Origin: Tridacna crocea
Taxonomy: Eukaryota > Mollusca > Bivalvia > Cardiida > Cardiidae
NCBI GenBank assembly: GCA_943736015.1
Contig: OX031057.1
Location: 52,653,001-52,717,000 of the forward strand
Direction: 5' to 3'
Length of the DNA stretch: 64,000 nt
Under the pieces are notes generated by a model. That model was not told where the DNA came from. It was given only the letters and a program-made list of their open reading frames with translations, and made no database searches. Of this stretch, positions 16,466 through 64,000 are shown piece by piece. The position numbers and the translations under genes were made by a program. Numbering within the stretch: position 1 is the stretch's first letter; the number at the start of each line of letters is the position of its first letter.

Positions 16466-17608
16466 ATGATCATTTTTGCCACAATGTCTCGACTCACCTG
16501 GTTATTAGTTACTGTAACAACCATTCTTTTGAACGTTCCAATGTTGCTCGGTAAGATTTTATTTCTACTTTCTGTCTACGAGCTGATAAGTCAGTCTGTT
16601 AATCATTCATTCATTCATTCATTTATTTATTTATTTATTTATCTGTCACTAAAACGTGAAGTTTGGTGCGTAAACGTGCAGTCTATTGATCGATTGACGT
16701 CGCCATTTTGGATGTTGTGTTGCAATTATAGTGATGTTTACGGGGCGCTCAAAACGGAAACCGGCTTTACTTGGTTTTTGCCAGGGTAAATGAAATATTC
16801 TTTGTCGATGTAATGCAGAGAAATGACCCTCCCCTACAAAATGACCCATGGGTCATTTCTCTACGTAGATGAATGACCCATGGGTCATTTCTCTACGTAG
16901 GATAGTGACCCGGGTCATTCCTCCACCTAGTGAAATGACTTTTGGGGTCATTTCTCTACGTAGATGAATGACCCGGGTCATTTTGTAGGGGAGGTCATTT
17001 CTGGCAATGTTTTCAAATACCACCTTCAACTCGGGATTGCATTGTAAAGATTTCTTTTTACAGTCAGTTATCTTTTTCTTCAAGGATATTTTCTTCGTAC
17101 TTTTTTTTTTGGTTGCATTGATATGTTATCATAAGTATTTCTACAGCCATTTTTGTTCCACATTTCAGGCGCGCACCACCATGGAAGGGTAGCTTTCCAA
17201 GCAGTGCGAAAAGAACCGATACGGGCAGAACTAGATGACATTCTAAAATTCGACGAGGTAGCCACGAACATTGGCATGCATTATAATGTGCACACTGGCG
17301 AATTTACGGCACCTGTCGCAGGGATTTATGTGTTCTACCTCCAAGTCGTGGCAAGTGATGGCACCTTCCTCAAAGTAAGCATTCAAAAGACTGCCTCGGC
17401 CTCCAAATACACTCATTATAGAGAAGTCGTGACCGCAGTCAGTGATAAGATGGGACCGGATAAGACTCTGGGTGGACAGGGTACGGCTTCCGCTGTTCTA
17501 CGGCTCAGAAGGGGCCAGAGAGTGACTACAATTATCAAGTGGATTTCTGGTAAAAAGGAGATAGACGGTGGAAGAACGACTAGTTTTTCAGGATATCTCT
17601 TACACTGA
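16466..17608 (+). CDS. Secreted C1q-domain protein (two exons)
   Basis: Globular C1q-domain proteins are secreted lectin-like recognition molecules that assemble as trimers; in bivalves many are linked to innate immunity. Exon 1 (16466-16550) encodes an N-terminal hydrophobic segment (LLVTVTTILLNVPMLLG) typical of a signal peptide. Exon 2 (17169-17608) encodes the whole C1q domain. The intron starts GTAAGA, ends TTTCAG and splits a glycine codon (phase 1). The joined frame has 174 residues. C1q hallmarks, in order: VAFQAV, FDEVATNIGMHYN, TGEFTAPVAGIYVFYLQV, GGQGTASAVLRLRRGQRV and a final FSGYLL. There is no collagen stretch or coiled coil, so this is the short sC1q type. A second in-frame ATG at 16484 also has A at -3 and would leave a shorter signal peptide. 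I see no AATAAA soon after the stop. Ligand unknown. Confidence 0.9.
16551..17168 (+). other. Intron of the C1q gene, with microsatellite and K element
   Basis: 618 bp, GTAAGA...CATTTCAG. It contains an ATTC/ATTT microsatellite at 16603-16643, the K repeat at 16811-17003, and a T-rich tract at 17099-17112. Confidence 0.85.
16811..17003. mobile_element. K element in the C1q intron
   Basis: Starts TAATGCAGAGAAATGACCCT and ends ATTTTGTAGGGGAGGTCATT, an inverted pair. Between them ATGACCCATGGGTCATTTC and CTACGTAG units recur, each nearly palindromic. Sister copies lie at 17909-18049 and 53878-54010. Confidence 0.8.
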
Positions 17609-30768: not shown

Positions 30769-31647
30769 TATACCAGACCAAAACAAACGATGTCAAGAAA
30801 ATTTGATAACATCTTCTTTGCAACTGGACCGACCGACCATGTACGATCAAGAGACAGCAATATCTGCATTTTTATTATCAGCAACGGTGTGTGCATCTTT
30901 GTTATCTATAAGAATGTCTGCATCGTAAGTGTTTACATTCGTGTCCGTATCTTTGACGTCAACAGCCGTGTTTGCATCTTTGGCGTCAACAACGGTGTCT
31001 GCATCTTTGGCATCAACAACGGTGTTTGTATCTTTGATGTCAATAACGGTGTCTGCATCTTTGGCGTCAACAACGGTGTTTGCATCTTTGGCGTAAATAA
31101 CGGTGTCTGCATCTTTGACGTCAATAACGGTGTCTGCATCTTTGGTGTCAACAACGGTGTGTGAATCTTTGGTGTCAACAATTTTGTCTGCATCTTTGAT
31201 GTCTATAACGGTGTTTGCATCTTTGGTGTCAACAACGGTGTGTGAATCTTTGGTGTCTACGACTGAGTCTGCATCTTTGGTGTCAACAACAGTGGCTGCA
31301 CCTTTTCATGAAAACAACGGTGTCTGTATTTTTGGTATCAGTAAAGGTGTTTGCATCTATTGTGTAAACAACGCTGTGTGCATCTCTCCTGTCAACAACG
31401 GTGCCTGCAACTATGGTTTAAACAAAGGCGTTTGCATCTATTTTGTCAGCAAAGATTTTAGCATCTTTGATGTCGAAAACGGTGTTTGCATCTTTGGTGT
31501 CAACAATGGTGCGTGCATCTTTGGCGTAGAGAACGGTGTCTGCATCTTTAGTGTCAACAACGGTGTCTGTGTCTTTGATGTCTACAACGGTGTCTGTGAC
31601 TTTAATATCAACAACGGTGTCTGCATCCTTGGTCTTAAAAACACTGT

Positions 31648-32221
31648 GTGCATCTTTGCTGTTTACAACGGTGTCTGTGTCTTTGAACACATGTCAACAA
31701 CAGTGGTGGCATGTTTGATGTCAACAATGGTGTCTGCATCATTTCGTGTAAACAGCAGTGTCTTCATCTTTGGTATCAATAAAGGTGTGTGCATCTTTGG
31801 TGTCAACAAAAGTGTCTGCGTCTTTGGTGTCAACAACAGTGTGTGCATCTTTACTGTCATAAACGATGTCTGTATCTTTGGTGTCAACACCGGTGTCTGC
31901 ATCTTTGGTGTAAACATTGGTGTCTGCATCTGTGGTATCAGCAATGTTTTTTTTTTTTTTTTTTTTTTTTTTTGCAGCTTTGGTTTAAACAACGGTGTCT
32001 GCATCTTTCGTGCCAAAAAAGGTTTGTGCATCTTTGATATCAATAAAGGAGTCTTTTGAGTAAACAACGATGTGTTCATCTCTACTATCGAAGACGGTGT
32101 CAGCTATTTGGTGTCAGAGAAGGTGTGTGAATTTTTGATGACAACAAAGGTGTCTGCATGTTTAATGTCAACAAAGGTTTGTACAATTTTGGTGTCAACA
32201 ACAGTGTGTGCAACAACAGTG
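31648..32221 (+). repeat. Segmental duplication inside the minisatellite, copy 1
   Basis: This matches 32275-32835 almost base for base (for example ACACATGTCAACAACAGTGG at 31686 and 32313). It contains a run of 27 T (31947-31973). Confidence 0.88.
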
Positions 32222-32274
32222 ACTTTAATATCAACAACGGTGTCTACATCCTTCGTGTTAAAAACACTGTACAC

Positions 32275-32835
32275 GTGCATCTTTGCTGTTTACAACGGTG
32301 TCTGTGTCTTTGAACACATGTCAACAACAGTGGTGGCATGTTTGATGTCAACAATGGTGTCTGCATCTTTTCGTGTAAACAGCAGTGTCTGCATCTTTGG
32401 TATCAATAAAGGTGTGTTCATCTTTGGTGTCAACAAAAGTGTCTGCGTCTTTGGTGTCAACAACAGTGTGTGCATCTTTACTGTCATAAACGATGTCTGT
32501 ATCTTTGGTGTCAACACCGGTGTCTGCATCTTTGGTGTAAACATTGGTGTCTGCATCTGTGGTATCAGCAATGTTTTTTTTTTTTTCTGCAGCTTTGGTT
32601 TAAACAATGGTGTCTGCATCTTTCGTGTCAAAAAAGGTTTGTGCATCTTTGGTATCAATAAAGGAGTCTTTTGAGTAAACAACGATGTGTTCATCTCTAC
32701 TATCGAAGACGGTGTCAGCTATTTGGTGTCAGAGAAGGTGTGTGAATTTTTGGTGACAACAAAGGTGTCTATATGTTTAGTGTCAACAAAGGTTTGTACA
32801 TTTTTGGTGTCAACAACAGTGTGTGCAACAACAGT
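32275..32835 (+). repeat. Segmental duplication inside the minisatellite, copy 2
   Basis: Offset from copy 1 is 627 bp before the T run and 613 bp after it, because the T run here is 13 long. A few point differences separate the copies. Confidence 0.88.
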
Positions 32836-35121
32836 GTGTGCATCTTTTGTATCAATAAGGTGAGTGCATCTTTGGTGTAAACATTGGCGTATGTACATGT
32901 ACCTTTGTCAACAACATTGCATCTTTTGTTTAAACAACAGTGTCTGCATCTTTAATTTAAACAACGGTGTCTGCATCTTTGATGTGAACAAAGGTGTGTG
33001 TGCATCAATAAAGGTTTTGCCTTTTTGGTGTAAACAACAGTATCTGCATCTATTGTATCAATAAAGCTGTGTGTATCCTTGGTTTTAATAAAGGTGTGTG
33101 CACCATTGGTGTCAGCAACGGTGTCTGCATCTTTGGTGTAAACAACGGTGTCTGCATCTTTGGTATCAACAACGGTGTCTGCATCTTCGATGTTAACAAC
33201 GATGTCGGCATCTTTGGGGTCAACCACGGTGTCTGCATCTTTGATGTCAGCAACGGAATATGCATCTTTGGTGTCAACATCGGTGTCTGCATTTTAGTAT
33301 CAACAACAATGTCTGCATCTTCGGTTTCAACTATGGTGTGTGCATCTTTATAGTCAACAACAGTGTCTGCAACTTTTGTGTCAACAATGGTGTCTGCATC
33401 TTTTGCGTCAAGAACGGTGTTTGCATCTTTGGTGATAACAACATTGTCTGCATCTATTGTGTCAAAAACGTTGTCTGCGTCTCTGATGTTAACAACAGTA
33501 TCTGCATCTCTTGTGTAAAAACTGTGAGTGCATCTTTTATGTAAACAATTGTGTCTACATCTTTGATGTCGACAACAGTGTCTGCGTACTTGTTTTCATC
33601 AACGGTGTCTGTATCTTCGGTTTCAAAAAAGGCTTGAGCATCTTTAATGTCAACAAACGTGTTTGAATCTAAGCGTCAACAAAGTTGCCGAAATCTTTGG
33701 TGTCAAAACCGATTTCTGCATCATTGGTGTCAATAACGTTGTCTGAATTTTTCCATAAACAATCGTGTCCGTATCTTTGTTGTCAAAAATGGTGTATGCA
33801 TTTTTTGAGTCAACAACCGTGTCTGCATCTTTGGTGTAAACAACAGTGTCTGCATCTAAAGCGTAAACAACGATGTCTTCATCTTTGGTATAAAAAACGG
33901 TGTCTGTATCTTCGGTTTAAAGAACAATGTAATCTTTGGTGTCAAAAACTGCGTCTGCGTCTTTGGTGTCAACAGCGGTGTCTGCATCCTTGGTGTAAAC
34001 AATTTTGTTTGTGTCTTTTGTGTCAACAACGTTGTCACTTCTTTTTTGTCAAAAACTATGTCTGCGTCTTTGGTGTCATCAACAGTGTCTGCGTCTTTGG
34101 TTTCAACAACAGTGTTTGCATCTTTGGCGTCAACAACGGTGTTTGTGTCTTTGGTGTCAACAACGGTGTGTGCATCTTTGGTGTCAAACTATGAGTGTGT
34201 ATCTTTGATATCTACTGTCTTTTGGGTCAACAACAGTCTCTGCATCTTTTATGTGAATAAAGTTGTGTGCATCTTCGATGTCAACAATGGTGCGTGTATC
34301 TTTGGTGTCAACAACAATGCCTTTATCTATAGTTGAACCAACAGTGTCTGAAAGTTTGTGGTTTACAATGGTGCTCCTCTCTCGATGTCAACAAAGTTGT
34401 CTGCATCTTTGGAGTCAACAACAGAGTCTGCATATTTGGTGTCAACAACGGTGTTTGCATCTTTGGTGTTCATAAAGATGTCTGCATCCTTGGTGTCAAA
34501 AACGTGGTCTGCGTCTTTCGATTAAACGACGGTGTCTGCATCTTTTTGTCAACAAGACTGTCGGCATCTTTTGTGTAATAACGGTGTCTGCGTCGTTGGT
34601 GTAGAGAACAATGTTTGCATCTTTGGTGTCAAGAAACGGTGTCTGCATCTATGGTGTAGAGAACGATGTTTGCATTTTTTGTGTCAATAACGGTGTAATC
34701 GTCTTTGGAGTCAACAAAGTTGTTCACATCTTTTGTGTCAATGTCGGTGTCTGCATCTTTATTGTCAACAACAATGTCCGCATCTTTGGTGTCAACAACG
34801 GCGTCTGCGTCGTTTGTGTAGAGAACGAAGTTTGCATCTTTGGTGTCAAGAACGATGTCTCCGTCTTTGTTGTCAAGAACAGTGTCTGCCTCTTTGATTT
34901 AGAGAACGATTTTTGCATTTTTGGTGTAAGTAATGGTGTCTGCGTCTTTGGAGACAATAAGGTGTGTGAATCTTTAGTGTCGACATCGGTGTCTGCATCT
35001 TTGATGTTATCAACGGTGTCTGTGTTCTTGGTGTCAACAACAGTGTGTGAACCTTTCGTATCAACAATGGTGTCTGCGTCCTTGGTGTCAACAACGATGT
35101 GTGATCGATAGCGAGTGAATT

Positions 35122-48622: not shown

Positions 48623-48982
48623 ATGCCTAGACTAAGCGAAAATGAAAGGAATCGGGCATTAGGAATGGTTGAAGCCAACGTCAGCATCCGCCGTGTGGCT
48701 AGACACTTCCGCTGTCATCGATCAAGCATTACCAGACCTTTGGTCCACTTTTTGCAGATCAGTCAAGTGAATGTTATGGACTGGCCATCGCTCTCTCCGG
48801 ATCTTGCTCCGATAGAGCATCTTTGGGACGAACTTGGACGTCGAGTGTATGTATTCCAACCCCCACCAGCTAACGTGAATCAGTTGCAACGTGCACTCGC
48901 TCAGGAATGGCAACGCATACCTCAACAAAAATTCGGACTGTCATCCTGTCAATGCGAAGAGGTGGTGCCAGGCTTGCATTAA
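48623..48982 (+). pseudogene. Tc1-like transposase, internally deleted and frameshifted
   Basis: Residues 1-38 (MPRLSENERNRALGMVEANV, RRVARHFRCHRSSITR) are the first helix-turn-helix of a Tc1 transposase. The frame then jumps to the C-terminal catalytic end, with VNVMDWPSLSPDLAPIEHLW giving the third acidic position of the DDE/D triad. The second DNA-binding helix set and the first two catalytic aspartates are missing. A full Tc1 transposase is about 340 residues; this frame has 119. After IPQQK the frame shifts by one base: the usual ILSMRR tail is readable in another frame near 48935-48965. It cannot be catalytically active, though the terminal repeats are intact. Confidence 0.9.
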
Positions 48983-60108: not shown

Positions 60109-60400
60109 GGATAATCAACTGGTTATTTTTGATATGAAAAATATCTCACGAGGATGCGTCGTAAGGCGTTGAAAAAACGAGTGCGAAGCACGAGTTTTTT
60201 TAACGCCTTACGACGCATCCGAGTGAGAGATTTTTCATATCAAAAATAACCAGTTGATTATTCTATTTATTATATACCTTATTAACATTATTATTTTTAA
60301 TTTTTCGTTCGAAAGTCGAAATCAATACTTTGGATAGAGAACAGAAATCGGGGACATAGTGCGGATGAATACATAATTTAAAAGAACAAAACGAGACTTC
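60109..60400. mobile_element. D element with near-perfect 150-bp hairpin
   Basis: AATCAACTGGTTATTTTTGA at 60116 is matched by TCAAAAATAACCAGTTGATT ending near 60260; arms include GATGCGTCGTAAGGCGTT and AACGCCTTACGACGCATC. The following 60270-60400 is the reverse complement of 6360-6480. Confidence 0.85.
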
Positions 60401-61300
60401 ACAAAACAAAAGAAGTCGCCATTTTTTTCAGTTGAAGCGGATAAGTTGTGCTTTTTCTTTTTGTGTATTCCGTGCCATAAATACGTAATGGATATGTGGA
60501 TTTATTTAAAAGTGAATATTTTGAGATTCTCATCACTACAGGTAGCTTTGTATGCAATGACATTCTGTGTGAATCGTGATTTCATCGTGGAAATGACTGG
60601 ACCAGTGGCAATTTCAATCAGCTGATTTGGAAGATTCCGGGAGGGGGAAACGGACAGATTCAGTGGTCAAGATGAAGCACAATTTTGTAAAAATAGGAAA
60701 AGCAATTTCTTTATCTTTACCACTGATTTGGTTAAAGTAAAACGACCGTAAATAAATGCTTTAACTTTTAATTATCCGTTTCAGTTAACATGACTGTATG
60801 CATCTCATTCTAAAAATAGCACATTAACGTGTGTAGAGCGACAGTTCAAGGACGGTTCAGCAGAGTGCACATTGTTCGGTCCCCCTAAACACAGAACCTA
60901 ACCGAACCTTAGCTATTTTTGCCGAACCTAAGTTGTTTTGGGGCCATACCGTGTTTGTATGACCTTAACAAGTATATTTTCTATTTCAGAAACAGTTTGA
61001 TAGTTATAATTCGAAAGAAAATGCAGCCTTTTGTGATATATAACGATATATTTGGACCATATCGTTCAACGAACCTAAAAACTCGCAGGACTGTCCGCCA
61101 TATTGGAGGCTATTATAACCCGGGAATGCTATATACACCGGTAACAGCCCGTTTTTCCCGGATATTGTATATTGCATTGTTTCCATCCACTTCAAATTTT
61201 CAGTCTTTTTTTTAATCAGAGTAGCAGTCGAATTCACTAAATACAATGCATCTTGATGAAATTGTGGAATTTCTAAATCTGAATGAATTCTTTAATTTTC
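60401..61300. other. No supported feature (900 bp)
   Basis: Unassigned. A 98-codon open frame (60919-61215) has no recognisable domain. Confidence 0.4.
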
Positions 61301-61301
61301 T

Positions 61302-61636
61302 AACCCATTTCCAAACACCAATTTCTACACAGTCCGAAATCGAAAGTATTTGCAGACGACAATGTTTATTAAGGTAGAAACTATGCAGTTTTATGTGGAG
61401 TATGGGAAATTTAGAAGGTGTTATTGTAGAGCTTTTTCGCCTTTTCTCACAATGTTGTCCAAAATTGAAAGTATTTGCAGATGACAACGTTAATTTAATG
61501 CTGATAGAATTTGAAAGTATTTGCAGAAGACAATATTTACGCTTATACAAATCAGTTTTATATAGTATAGGAATAAGAGTCTGTTGGAAATTTGAGAAGT
61601 TGGTATTGTAGAGCAATTTCTCCTTTCTCACAATGT
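61302..61636. mobile_element. B-derived, rearranged
   Basis: AACCCATTTCCAAACACCAA at the left. GAAAGTATTTGCAGACGACA recurs near 61340, 61466 and 61512. AGAGC(AA)TTTCTCCTTTCTCAC recurs. This looks like several partly duplicated B pieces. Confidence 0.5.
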
Positions 61637-61690
61637 GGTCATGAGTGTTTCATGTCAAGGTCAACTTAAAAGGAGTATCATTAATTCTAA

Positions 61691-61942
61691 CCCTTTCCCA
61701 AACGTCAAATTTTACACTCTTCCAAACAGGACGAGTTTGTACACAAAAAATTCATTGGAGAAAAAAAAAAATGACAGAAATTCTCCAAATGGGTAGAAAA
61801 CACTGTGGGAAAAGGAGGAATTGCTCGTTATGAGCTATTCCTCCTTTTCCCACAATTAACGAGCAATTCCTCCTTTTCCCACAGTGTTTTCAAAAGACTT
61901 GTACTGCAGACACGTGAAAACGAGGGCTTGTTTGGGAAAGGG
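61691..61942 (+). mobile_element. B element (GCTCGTTA variant) with duplicated arm
   Basis: Ends CCCTTTCCCAAACGTCAAA and TTGTTTGGGAAAGGG; flanks CTAA and TTGA. The hairpin GGAGGAATTGCTCGTTATGA is followed by two right arms (ATTCCTCCTTTTCCCACA twice). Confidence 0.8.
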
Positions 61943-62002
61943 TTGATGATTGAATGGGAAATGGGGGAAGGGGTATGTTGACAATTAGAGAAAAATATCT
62001 TT

Positions 62003-62416
62003 CTATTTATTTTGTGGCCCTGAAAAGGGCCGAAGTCTGTAAAGCTTAAGGCCGGCTTTCAAATAATTCTTCACGTTCAGGGATAAAACAACTTCTGATC
62101 CGACTCTTAGTCTTTTCTTGCTGCATGCGAAATGTATATATTGGCGCTACATCCTGCTGAGCCCTTGATCTTTGATGCTCGACAGGGCGTCTTTAGTAGT
62201 GCCGTGACAACAGTAGCGGACATCAACTTCTGATAGAATTCTGACTGCTATCTTCTCTAAGGAGATTGGTGCGCTGTGTCCTGAGCCTGCTCTGATGTAG
62301 GTGTTGCAGGTTGATAAAAACAATCTCTGTTTGTCTTTTGGCTGTTTGATGACATCCGATAGCTGGCGTTTTGTTATATTGAATTTATCCAAAATATGCT
62401 GTACTCTAACGTAACC
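62003..62416 (-). pseudogene. Tpt1/KptA-type RNA 2'-phosphotransferase fragment with in-frame stop
   Basis: Members of this family remove a splice-junction 2'-phosphate from RNA using NAD+; animal homologues are called TRPT1. The minus-strand frame reads GYVRVQHILDKF, then DKQRLFLS, YIRAGSGHS, CCHGTTKDALSSIKDQGLSRM. A TAG at 62149-62147 is followed in the same frame by RQYIHFA and SEVVLSLNVKNYLKAGLKLY. These match the family's GYVRV, DKQRF, RAxxGHS, HGT, GLxxM and HIHFA blocks in order. The N-terminal LRH block is not in this frame; it begins after TAA at 62419-62417, possibly at a splice acceptor (AATTAAG). The frame ends at 62003-62005 in the histone-type stem-loop region, before the family's last strand. 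I call it a pseudogene; a sequencing error at one base or a missing exon are alternatives. Confidence 0.82.
62016..62031 (-). promoter_or_regulatory. Histone-mRNA-type 3' stem-loop
   Basis: On the minus strand GGCCCTTTTCAGGGCC forms a 6-bp stem with a TTTC loop, the exact layout of the metazoan replication-dependent histone 3' signal. ACA follows directly, and a purine-rich AGAAAGA lies 11 bases downstream (61998-62004), where a U7-binding element is expected. No histone frame lies upstream; the Tpt1 relic does. Confidence 0.7.
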
Positions 62417-62905
62417 TTAATTATCAAAAGGAGCAGACGAATCATGTCCGAGGTAGAAGACTATCCTTCTGGATAACGTTTCCATCATTTTTGGCTAGCT
62501 TGTAAATTGTATGTATGTATATATCTGCAAGGTGTCAATTCAGATCGGATAATCATAATTCATTCAACGGAAACAAGGGAGATACAGTATATCACTGTAC
62601 TTCTAATTGTTTCTTTAATTGTTTCTTTAAGTAACACGTTACTCCGGAAAACACAATAGCCGCTGCAAGACAGATTTGCAACGCTGTTTGATAACAATAC
62701 TTGACACAAGACTTGAATCAACCTAAATTTATATTAAACCCTTGATCTTTCCATACACATGCCTATGGTGCCTAGAAAACAATGTTGAAAAAGAAGTATT
62801 TGTTCATTTTTATTGTACAAAGAAAATAAAAGTTAGTTGTATTCATGAAAAATCTTTTGCACGCTTATGCCTTCCATTCTGAACATGGGTTACAAAACCA
62901 GAGGT
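62417..62905. other. No supported feature
   Basis: Unassigned. No further Tpt1 exon that I can recognise. Confidence 0.4.
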
Positions 62906-62908
62906 ACA

Positions 62909-62938
62909 AACCCCCCCCCCCCCCCCAAAAAAAAAATA
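62909..62938. repeat. C run followed by A run
   Basis: About 18 C then about 9 A. Confidence 0.9.
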
Positions 62939-63144
62939 TAAAGTAGAAACATTGTACGAAAAGATGGGTTTGAAAGTCTTGTACTTCTTTTCCCACGCAA
63001 TCGTTGCAAGACTCTTAAATTAGTTCTTTGATAAGGGGAAATGATCGTAATACAACGTTCCAAGTCTTCAGCTGCTGACTATTGAACACATTTTAGGAGA
63101 CGGAAAACAGACAATTTCTTTTTTTTCCCACACTGTTCCATATG
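62939..63144. mobile_element. B remnants, host of element T
   Basis: GTAGAAACATTGTACGAAAA and TTTTCCCACACTGTTCCATA TGCTATCATG resemble the middle of B. The last part is the insertion site of element T. Confidence 0.45.
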
Positions 63145-63152
63145 CTATCATG

Positions 63153-63932
63153 GGTTTAATCCCACTTGGTCTACTCCCATTTCGTCTAAAGATTTTTTTG
63201 TGTAGTCAGTCCCATTTCGTCTAATCTCATTTCGTCTACACCCATATTGTCTATAGTATGTTTGAATGTATTTGTATAAATTAACTTTGAAAATCAATTT
63301 GAATGTCTCATTTAAATTTTTTATATATTTTTTTCTTATTTTGTGCTTTTACTTGTACAAATCTACAAATAAATAGAAATTTGTAGATACAAGTGTCTTA
63401 ATCATCGGAGTTATTGTATTAAGTCATGATACATTTATATTATCCATACAAAAAGTAAATAGATAAAATAATAAATGAATAAAACACTTTGGTAATAATT
63501 AAGATAATTTTAAAATGATTACATTGTTTATGTTCATCATTAATCAAAAGTTTAGCTTCAAAGTATGGAATGTCTTTAATGACAATTACCTGAAAGTTTG
63601 ATACTTCATGCACTTTAAACAACATGGTGTGAGAAGTGTCATAATCCCTTCTCAACACCTGTCTTGTCTCAGTCTGCATAGGTGTTAATGCATCAATAGA
63701 AACTATCAACAAAATTGCAGTACAAATTAAAAAAAGATAATATCTAAATCATATTTTTGGGAGTAAAAAGTGGAAATAAATAATTTATTAGTCAAAAACA
63801 TCAAGAAAAAATAGAATGTAGACGAAATGGGACTACTGGGCAAAATAGGTGTAGACGAAATGGGACTGTTGCGCAAATTTGTAGACGAAATGGGAGTAGA
63901 CGAAATGGGAGTAGACCAACTGGGATGTTACC
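63153..63932. mobile_element. Element T: 780-bp DNA transposon-like unit, 8-bp target duplication
   Basis: CTATCATG at 63145-63152 and 63933-63940 flank it. Termini start GGTTTAATCCCACTTGGTCT and end in AGACCAACTGGGATGTTACC, inverted over more than 30 bp. CCCATTTCGTCTA (left) and TAGACGAAATGGG (right) repeat several times next to each end. An AT-rich interior holds a 90-codon reverse open frame (63440-63712) with no recognisable domain and a possible C-terminal hydrophobic stretch. The superfamily is not determined; 8-bp duplications with GG ends would suit Merlin or related groups. Confidence 0.88.
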
Positions 63933-63973
63933 CTATCATGAGTGTGTTGTATGCAGGTTCTCTAAATATTTAA

Positions 63974-64000
63974 CCCTGTCCCATACAACACAATTTTCCA
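63974..64000 (+). mobile_element. B element, cut by the window edge
   Basis: TTAA 63970-63973, then CCCTGTCCCATACAACACAA TTTTCC, a B left end. Confidence 0.6.

Follow-up and report, generated by a model that had tools for sequence, protein, structure and literature searches.

A histone-type 3' stem-loop follows transposon-borne Tpt1/KptA genes in the genome of Tridacna crocea

The hairpin signal at the 3' end of replication-dependent histone mRNAs is otherwise the means by which animals finish histone messages, and its binding protein, SLBP, needs U at loop positions 1 and 3; to our knowledge, the pathway that it serves is otherwise thought to be reserved for histones. Mutator-like transposons, for their part, leave target duplications of 8 to 11 bp, usually 9. 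Such elements (MULEs) are named, in an excerpt of PMC10294476, among the DNA elements present in all mollusc genomes analysed there. For the bivalve Lucina pectinata, an excerpt of PMC6210712 describes a palindrome on all histone mRNAs, with purine-rich elements nearby in four genes only, and an H1_B gene without these conserved sequences, and in Hydractinia histone genes the distance from stop codon to hairpin is given as 6-17 bases in a passage of PMC5011920.

The window analysed here, a stretch of 64,000 nucleotides (C2:52653001-52717000), contains a histone-type stem-loop of this kind in a position where Tpt1/KptA, a gene of RNA-repair type, rather than a histone coding region, lies upstream (Table 1). 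Judged from the copies compared below, the hairpin is part of a Tpt1 gene carried by a transposon and has three aligned features in common with the ends of host histone genes, across lineages that are saturated at synonymous positions. From these features we infer that the element's Tpt1 gene probably uses the host replication-dependent histone 3'-end pathway. Elsewhere, the window holds a long degenerate 27-bp tandem array (TCTGCATCTTTGGTGTCAACAACGGTG) at 30863-35100, with 122.7 copies over 30863-34187 and open frames on both strands, a C1q-domain ORF at 17153-17608 (Pfam 2.7e-19), the remains of a Tc1-type transposase (helix-turn-helix and DDE pieces) at 48623-48982, and a large palindrome at 60126-60250 whose hinge lies, by eye, near 60186.

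Table 1. Coordinates, within the window, of the Tpt1-hairpin element and its parts
Feature	Position	Strand	Remarks
Mutator-like transposon copy, 5.3 kb	60877-66174 (window holds 60877-64000)	minus	edges and target-site duplication; right end in L079
Left terminal inverted repeat, ~290 bp	60877-61166		91% identical to the right one
Target-site duplication CACATTGTT, 9 bp	60868-60876		repeated just right of 66174
Nested foldback insertion, GTAGACGAAATGGGA arms	63153-63932 (borders +/- a few bases)		flanked by CTATCATG
Tpt1/KptA frame, intronless	62488-62036	minus	PF01885; in-frame stops at 62419-62417 (TAA) and 62149-62147 (TAG)
91-bp deletion junction	62033/62032	minus	last codons and stop gone; shared by L002 (the window copy), L005, L012, L013
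Histone-type stem-loop GGCCCTTTTCAGGGCC	62031-62016	minus	6 bp, loop TTTC; RF00032 match
ACA directly 3' of stem	62015-62013	minus	predicted cleavage just beyond
AATAAA, possible poly(A) signal overlapping the 3' end region	62011-62006	minus	from sequence
TAG now closing the frame	62005-62003	minus	beyond the predicted cleavage site
AGAAAGA, purine stretch resembling the histone downstream element	62004-61998	minus	starts at +12
ATTGTC at +31	61985-61980	minus	also present 3' of host histone stem-loops

Read on the minus strand, the site runs CTTC-GGCCCTTTTCAGGGCC-ACAAAATAAATAGAAAGATATTTTTCTCTAATTGTCAAC, and, according to an excerpt of PMC7807067, human transcripts have been searched for stem-loop sequences that include GGCCCTTTTCAGGGCC. 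The hairpin matched the Rfam model Histone3 (RF00032), the sole Rfam family at gathering level within the window, over the whole model length. Its score of 35.2 bits (E = 1.7e-6, taking 64 kb and 4227 families into account) clears the cut-off of 34 by just 1.2 bits, which counts against the favoured explanation. The original prediction that stem-loop, ACA and AGAAAGA match a histone 3' signal was confirmed, and only the offset of the purine stretch needed correction, from +11 to +12. Folding energy alone was unremarkable (z = -1.87; 6 of 200 shuffles folded equally well). The degenerate pattern GGYYYTTYTNARRRCC turned up in 3 of 100 shuffled windows, an expectation of 0.03 per window, the chance of AGAAAGA in 20 nt of window sequence is 0.0018, and a third-order Markov model gave per-window chances of 1.8e-5 for the exact 16-mer and 3.7e-7 for the 19-mer. 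A scan for bacterial-type terminators gave no terminator-like site at the hairpin, and the exact 19-mer was absent from the viral contigs searched, a set which may leave out records near the window's genome.

The exact 16-mer was then sought across the 1.05 Gb of the window's own genome, where it occurs at 14 sites, the reversed pattern occurring at none. Chance, which had been called unlikely from the outset, is ruled out by this difference together with the Rfam score, the shuffles and the Markov expectation. Eleven of the 14 sites follow Tpt1/KptA frames (hereafter class A), one follows H2A.X (L010, 95% identical to the H2A query and with an SQEF tail by eye) and two, L003 and L006, follow neither, their 3-kb pieces giving matches neither to Tpt1 nor to the four histones at E 1; in both, the 16-mer sits in another repeat context, TTTCAGGGCCATCATGGCCC. 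Each class A copy carries AGAAAGA at +12 and ATTGTC at +31, and AC follows the stem in all except L005, which has AAA. The longer form of the 3' end, present in 7 of the 11, places TAA 8 nt 5' of the hairpin (in L004, ...GNRDGFIKPQYFKSIYLKQ and stop), while a frameshift near the C-terminus of L001, L007 and L008 causes the open frame to miss the normal stop. AATAAA was present in most class A copies read and absent from L004, L011, L047 and L052; given this motif, most class A copies could be polyadenylated.

This shared end bears directly on the proposal that a histone gene end had landed beside the window's Tpt1 copy. In favour of such a fragment, or of a chance match, no histone gene was found nearby and the junction in the window copy sits at the stem base. 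The predicted absence of a histone gene from the window was indeed upheld, none of four typed histone queries being convincing by tblastn (best E = 0.30), and the upstream frame proved to be Tpt1, as had been stated (PF01885, 2.8e-23, 83.3 bits against a cut-off of 26, profile covered to 167 of 177); Tpt1 was also the one Pfam domain found in the three minus-strand frames of the adjoining 1.1 kb. A local event is, however, ruled out by 11 paralogous Tpt1 copies which share the same end at 11 places, diverged copies having related ends, and the junction itself represents a 91-bp deletion inside a dispersed unit. With the 19-mer's chance expectation also against it, we give this reading practically no weight.

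The deletion, common to the window copy and three others which lack 91 bp at the 3' end, is evident as an alignment break at 62033/62032 against L009, L011, L014, L039, L040 and L049, with no break against L012, L013 and L037. Because it removed the normal stop, the window frame now reads through the hairpin to the terminal TAG; a stop past the predicted cleavage site holds for the window's subfamily and counts against the favoured explanation. Two premature stops, coupled with this displaced one, suggest that the window copy is probably dead, and its 3' end retains an AATAAA. The suggestion that Tpt1 employs histone-type 3' processing is supported at the level of the family, in which paralogues have the hairpin, the purines and in many cases ATTGTC, and is not supported for the window copy with its stops and deletion.

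The whole Tpt1-hairpin unit is a transposon, a point absent from the original prediction. The left edge of the window element lies at 60877 (CGGTCCCCCTAAACACAGAACC...), its nested foldback insertion is absent from L013 and L037, and target duplications of 8-10 bp, allowing a few bases of slide, flank L009, L012, L062, L063 and L064. The terminal inverted repeat (TIR) of class D is related yet distinct (CGGTCCTACTAAAACACGCC...), so that two TIR lineages carry Tpt1 and hairpins. As to the transposase, L069 contains a 243-aa frame divergent from Tpt1 and without a Pfam match, for which 44 genomic matches were found, one of them, at 64% identity, within an open frame of 1041 aa; of this frame, 500 residues were read, and they matched the MULE domain PF10551 (E = 6.1e-6) with 27.0 bits against a cut-off of 27.6. 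With the reservation that this domain falls just under its cut-off, the Tpt1 copies appear to constitute a dispersed family in Mutator-like DNA transposons. Other vehicles were considered and rejected. A Helitron hairpin end does not fit, as CTAAT, judged by eye, stands farther from the hairpin than is usual for Helitrons, and the element is bounded by TIRs and target duplications. A retrocopy with template switching was also set aside, since DNA-transposon edges explain the mobility of the unit, whose longest flanking direct repeat, at 10 nt, is of a length that random pairs also show. A MITE-like dispersed family is represented by a 35-nt inverted repeat of the CTGTGGGAAAAGGAGGAATTGCTCGTTA type at 61796-61891 and more than 20 other sites in the window, and this type also occurs inside class A elements.

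A protein search of the same genome returned at least 139 Tpt1 matches (150 of 167 candidates scored), and a PF01885 search returned 77. Thirty-three distinct Tpt1-like loci were read, the host TRPT1 exon apart, and 24 of these have a 16-nt hairpin with at least five of six pairs 3' of the frame. Thirteen had been fetched for their hairpin (the 11 exact 16-mer copies, L055 and L067), and the fair sample is consequently the other 20, in which GGYYYTTYTNARRRCC occurs exactly in 7 and with one mismatch in 4, three (L058-L060) have a shortened 15-nt hairpin and six have none, namely L053, L056 and L057, where the 3' part of Tpt1 is missing, and L065, L066 and L072. In random 230-nt pieces of the window, a near-consensus stem lies close to the start in 0.05%, and a bare five-of-six stem in 28%; since the latter is so common, the consensus match alone is informative. 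The hairpin-less L065, L066 and L072 and the shortened L058-L060 count against the favoured explanation. Inspection of the paralogues, which the original prediction had advised, thus found the hairpin kept in the 11 exact copies and in many diverged ones, those three loci lacking it.

Histone-type hairpins are retained by diverged Tpt1 copies of approximately 50% identity and in some of these stand two or three in a row: L069 has three at a spacing of ~26 nt, L070 two, and in L061-L064 the arrays are degenerate. The Tpt1 stop TAA lies inside the first array hairpin of L061, L062, L063 and L069, which makes that hairpin partly coding and places its loop also under coding constraint. Among 16 hairpins beyond the first coding-overlapping one, a count that excludes class A (all TTTC), the first coding-overlapping hairpins and one unrelated L069 stem with loop AAAA, T was found at loop position 1 in 16 and at position 3 in 14. 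In L055 and L067, the stem is compensated (GGCTCT/AGAGCC).

A pattern with the loop left free, GGCCCTNNNNAGGGCC, occurs at 262 genomic sites against one for its reversed control, many of the sites counted being near-identical copies and not independent events. In the first 50 of these (C1-C7), a same-strand Tpt1 match precedes the site by no more than 400 nt in 31 cases and follows it within that distance in none; the loops of these 31 have T at position 1 in every case, T at position 3 in 29, and C, T or A at position 2. The census of Histone3 matches above the cut-off (75 of 323,229 candidates scored) gave 47, of which 34 belong to the C13 histone array, one to H2A.X and 12 lie 3' of Tpt1, so that a Histone3 match is no proof of a histone gene; the C13 assignment was made by position, 10 kb of the array and parts of the 3-kb pieces L023-L034 having been read. 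That array, at C13:7.05-7.47 Mb, is tandem, with a spacing of mostly ~9.4-9.7 kb, and its matches switch strand twice (10 kb = L074). Host histones that agree at 100% of positions with the typed H3 and H4 queries suggest, together with the C1q-domain ORF of the window, an animal genome and probably that of a bivalve.

Six host stem-loops served for comparison: those of H2A, H1, H3 and H4 (L074; H1 by eye), of H2A.X (L010) and of the L068 basic protein. L068, in which a basic protein tail, KASPKRRRRARRVK, precedes a histone stem-loop, may by eye be a sperm nuclear protein gene. In five of the six histone or histone-like genes, ATTGTC stands at +29 to +32, H3 having GTTGTC. Class A, L052, L069, L070 (first hairpin), L067, L061, L063, L049 and L058-L060 have the same motif at offsets between +31 and +33, and an altered motif, or none, follows the hairpins of L047, L050/L071, L051, L062, L064 and L055 and the second hairpin of L070. 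The random rate of ATTGTC for +20 to +50 is ~1%, and because this motif played no part in picking the loci it constitutes independent evidence for histone-type ends. The comparison with host histone 3' ends which had been proposed as a check on the original prediction showed the same motif at the same spacing in most host genes and in many elements. A search for U7 snRNA in the genome with RF00066 gave no match, and control searches likewise gave none.

The hairpins might alternatively serve the transposon at the DNA or RNA level, as subterminal transposase sites or as RNA structure for another protein, their likeness to histone ends being convergent. The tandem arrays, with their ~26-nt period in L069, would suit such a role, single hairpins being found in the host histone genes read. 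Set against this are the placement of the hairpins at the Tpt1 stop, away from the TIRs, and 3' of Tpt1 in 31 of the 50 listed sites and 5' in none, and the match of ACCA, purines and ATTGTC spacing to histones; we consider convergence rather improbable.

With respect to selection, the open frames of L069 (C16:41964064) and L070 (C2:16176616) gave dN 0.18 and dS 0.97 (omega 0.18), and comparison of class A with class B gave pS 0.83-0.90, synonymous sites being saturated, and pN 0.33-0.36. Such purifying selection between two old lineages suggests that Tpt1 did something for the element. Young class A pairs had omega values of 0.28-0.96, the pair at 0.96 including a frameshifted tail in its compared stretch, and selection within class A would thus appear near neutral at the top of this range. 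The latter result favours another possibility, namely that an ancestral Tpt1 transposon took up a histone 3' end on a single occasion and that this end has been copied since without use, the RNAs being made and ended otherwise; the shortened hairpins of the class E copies L058-L060 and the AATAAA of most class A copies are also in its favour. The hairpin and, in many copies, ATTGTC nevertheless persist across synonymously saturated lineages, and the compensated stems of L055 and L067 likewise argue against disuse. We consider this account unlikely, if not negligibly so.

The host TRPT1 is a separate gene, with an exon at C3:20568651 bordered, by eye, by AG and GT (L077). Against PDB chains, the element Tpt1 (L008) scored 35.6 bits with the best, a "probable RNA 2'-phosphotransferase", and 24.5 with 7yw2, tRNA 2'-phosphotransferase 1, which several chains of the former name outscored. 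Residues R14-H15, R66 and R115 of L005 correspond to the Arg-His-Arg-Arg set of Tpt1, one residue of which seems, by eye, changed in L069 and in L070. Phage KptA was ~30% identical (56 records), and no Tpt1 relatives were confirmed in other genome contigs or in viral contigs, sets which may leave out records near the window's genome.

Many diverged members, then, have the layout of host histone ends: one or more stem-loops, ACA or ACCA, a purine-rich stretch and ATTGTC approximately 31-33 nt after the stem. The element probably acquired its 3' signal long ago by taking up the 3' end of a histone gene. Under the favoured explanation, use of the histone pathway by the transposon, SLBP on the stem-loop and U7 snRNP on the purine stretch would process the element's Tpt1 transcripts, cleavage would fall a few bases 3' of the stem, and the transcripts would lack a poly(A) tail; most Tpt1 protein would consequently be produced during S phase, the time at which a DNA transposon profits most from transposition. 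Further points against this explanation are the AATAAA of most class A copies, the coding constraint on the first array hairpins, the near-identity of many counted sites, the near-neutral upper omega values within class A and the altered or absent ATTGTC of several loci. Candidate roles of Tpt1 for the element include 2'-phosphate removal from RNA, or the capping or ADP-ribosylation of ends. The full proposal, that the transposon family took over the histone 3'-end pathway to make a stem-loop-ended, poly(A)-less S-phase Tpt1 mRNA whose enzyme serves the element, for example in RNA or DNA end modification, is tentative, and we place its chances slightly below even.

If true, this would represent a non-histone, mobile-element use of the histone 3'-end pathway, in which the hairpin signal may tie a jumping gene's output to cell division, and it would point to a way in which an element can coordinate its expression with DNA replication. 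It would also show that a DNA transposon can have Tpt1/KptA as a resident accessory gene, and SLBP/U7 processing could be followed outside histone genes by means of a natural reporter, a multi-copy transposon gene bearing the histone signal. Among the open-access titles and abstract openings listed, none dealt with a histone stem-loop behind a transposon gene or Tpt1.

Compared with the replication-dependent histone mRNA 3' end (RF00032), the element end shares the 16-nt stem-loop, ACA or ACCA, purines near +12 and the host-type ATTGTC; it differs in that its hairpin follows a transposon Tpt1 gene, stands in arrays of two or three in several diverged copies and has a predicted mode of processing. 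The 8-nt distance from stop to hairpin in the Tpt1 copies is within the 6-17 bases given for Hydractinia histone genes in the passage of PMC5011920 cited above. The element copies resemble the RNA 2'-phosphotransferase Tpt1/KptA (PF01885) in their domain and, in L005, in the Arg-His-Arg-Arg residues, but are transposon-borne and intronless, unlike the spliced TRPT1 exon of the host. With MULEs and Pack-MULEs they share the 9-bp target duplication, the long inverted ends and one ORF related to a candidate MULE-domain transposase; Tpt1, however, given its presence in two TIR lineages and the purifying selection upon it, has the look of an old resident gene rather than of a recent host-gene capture.
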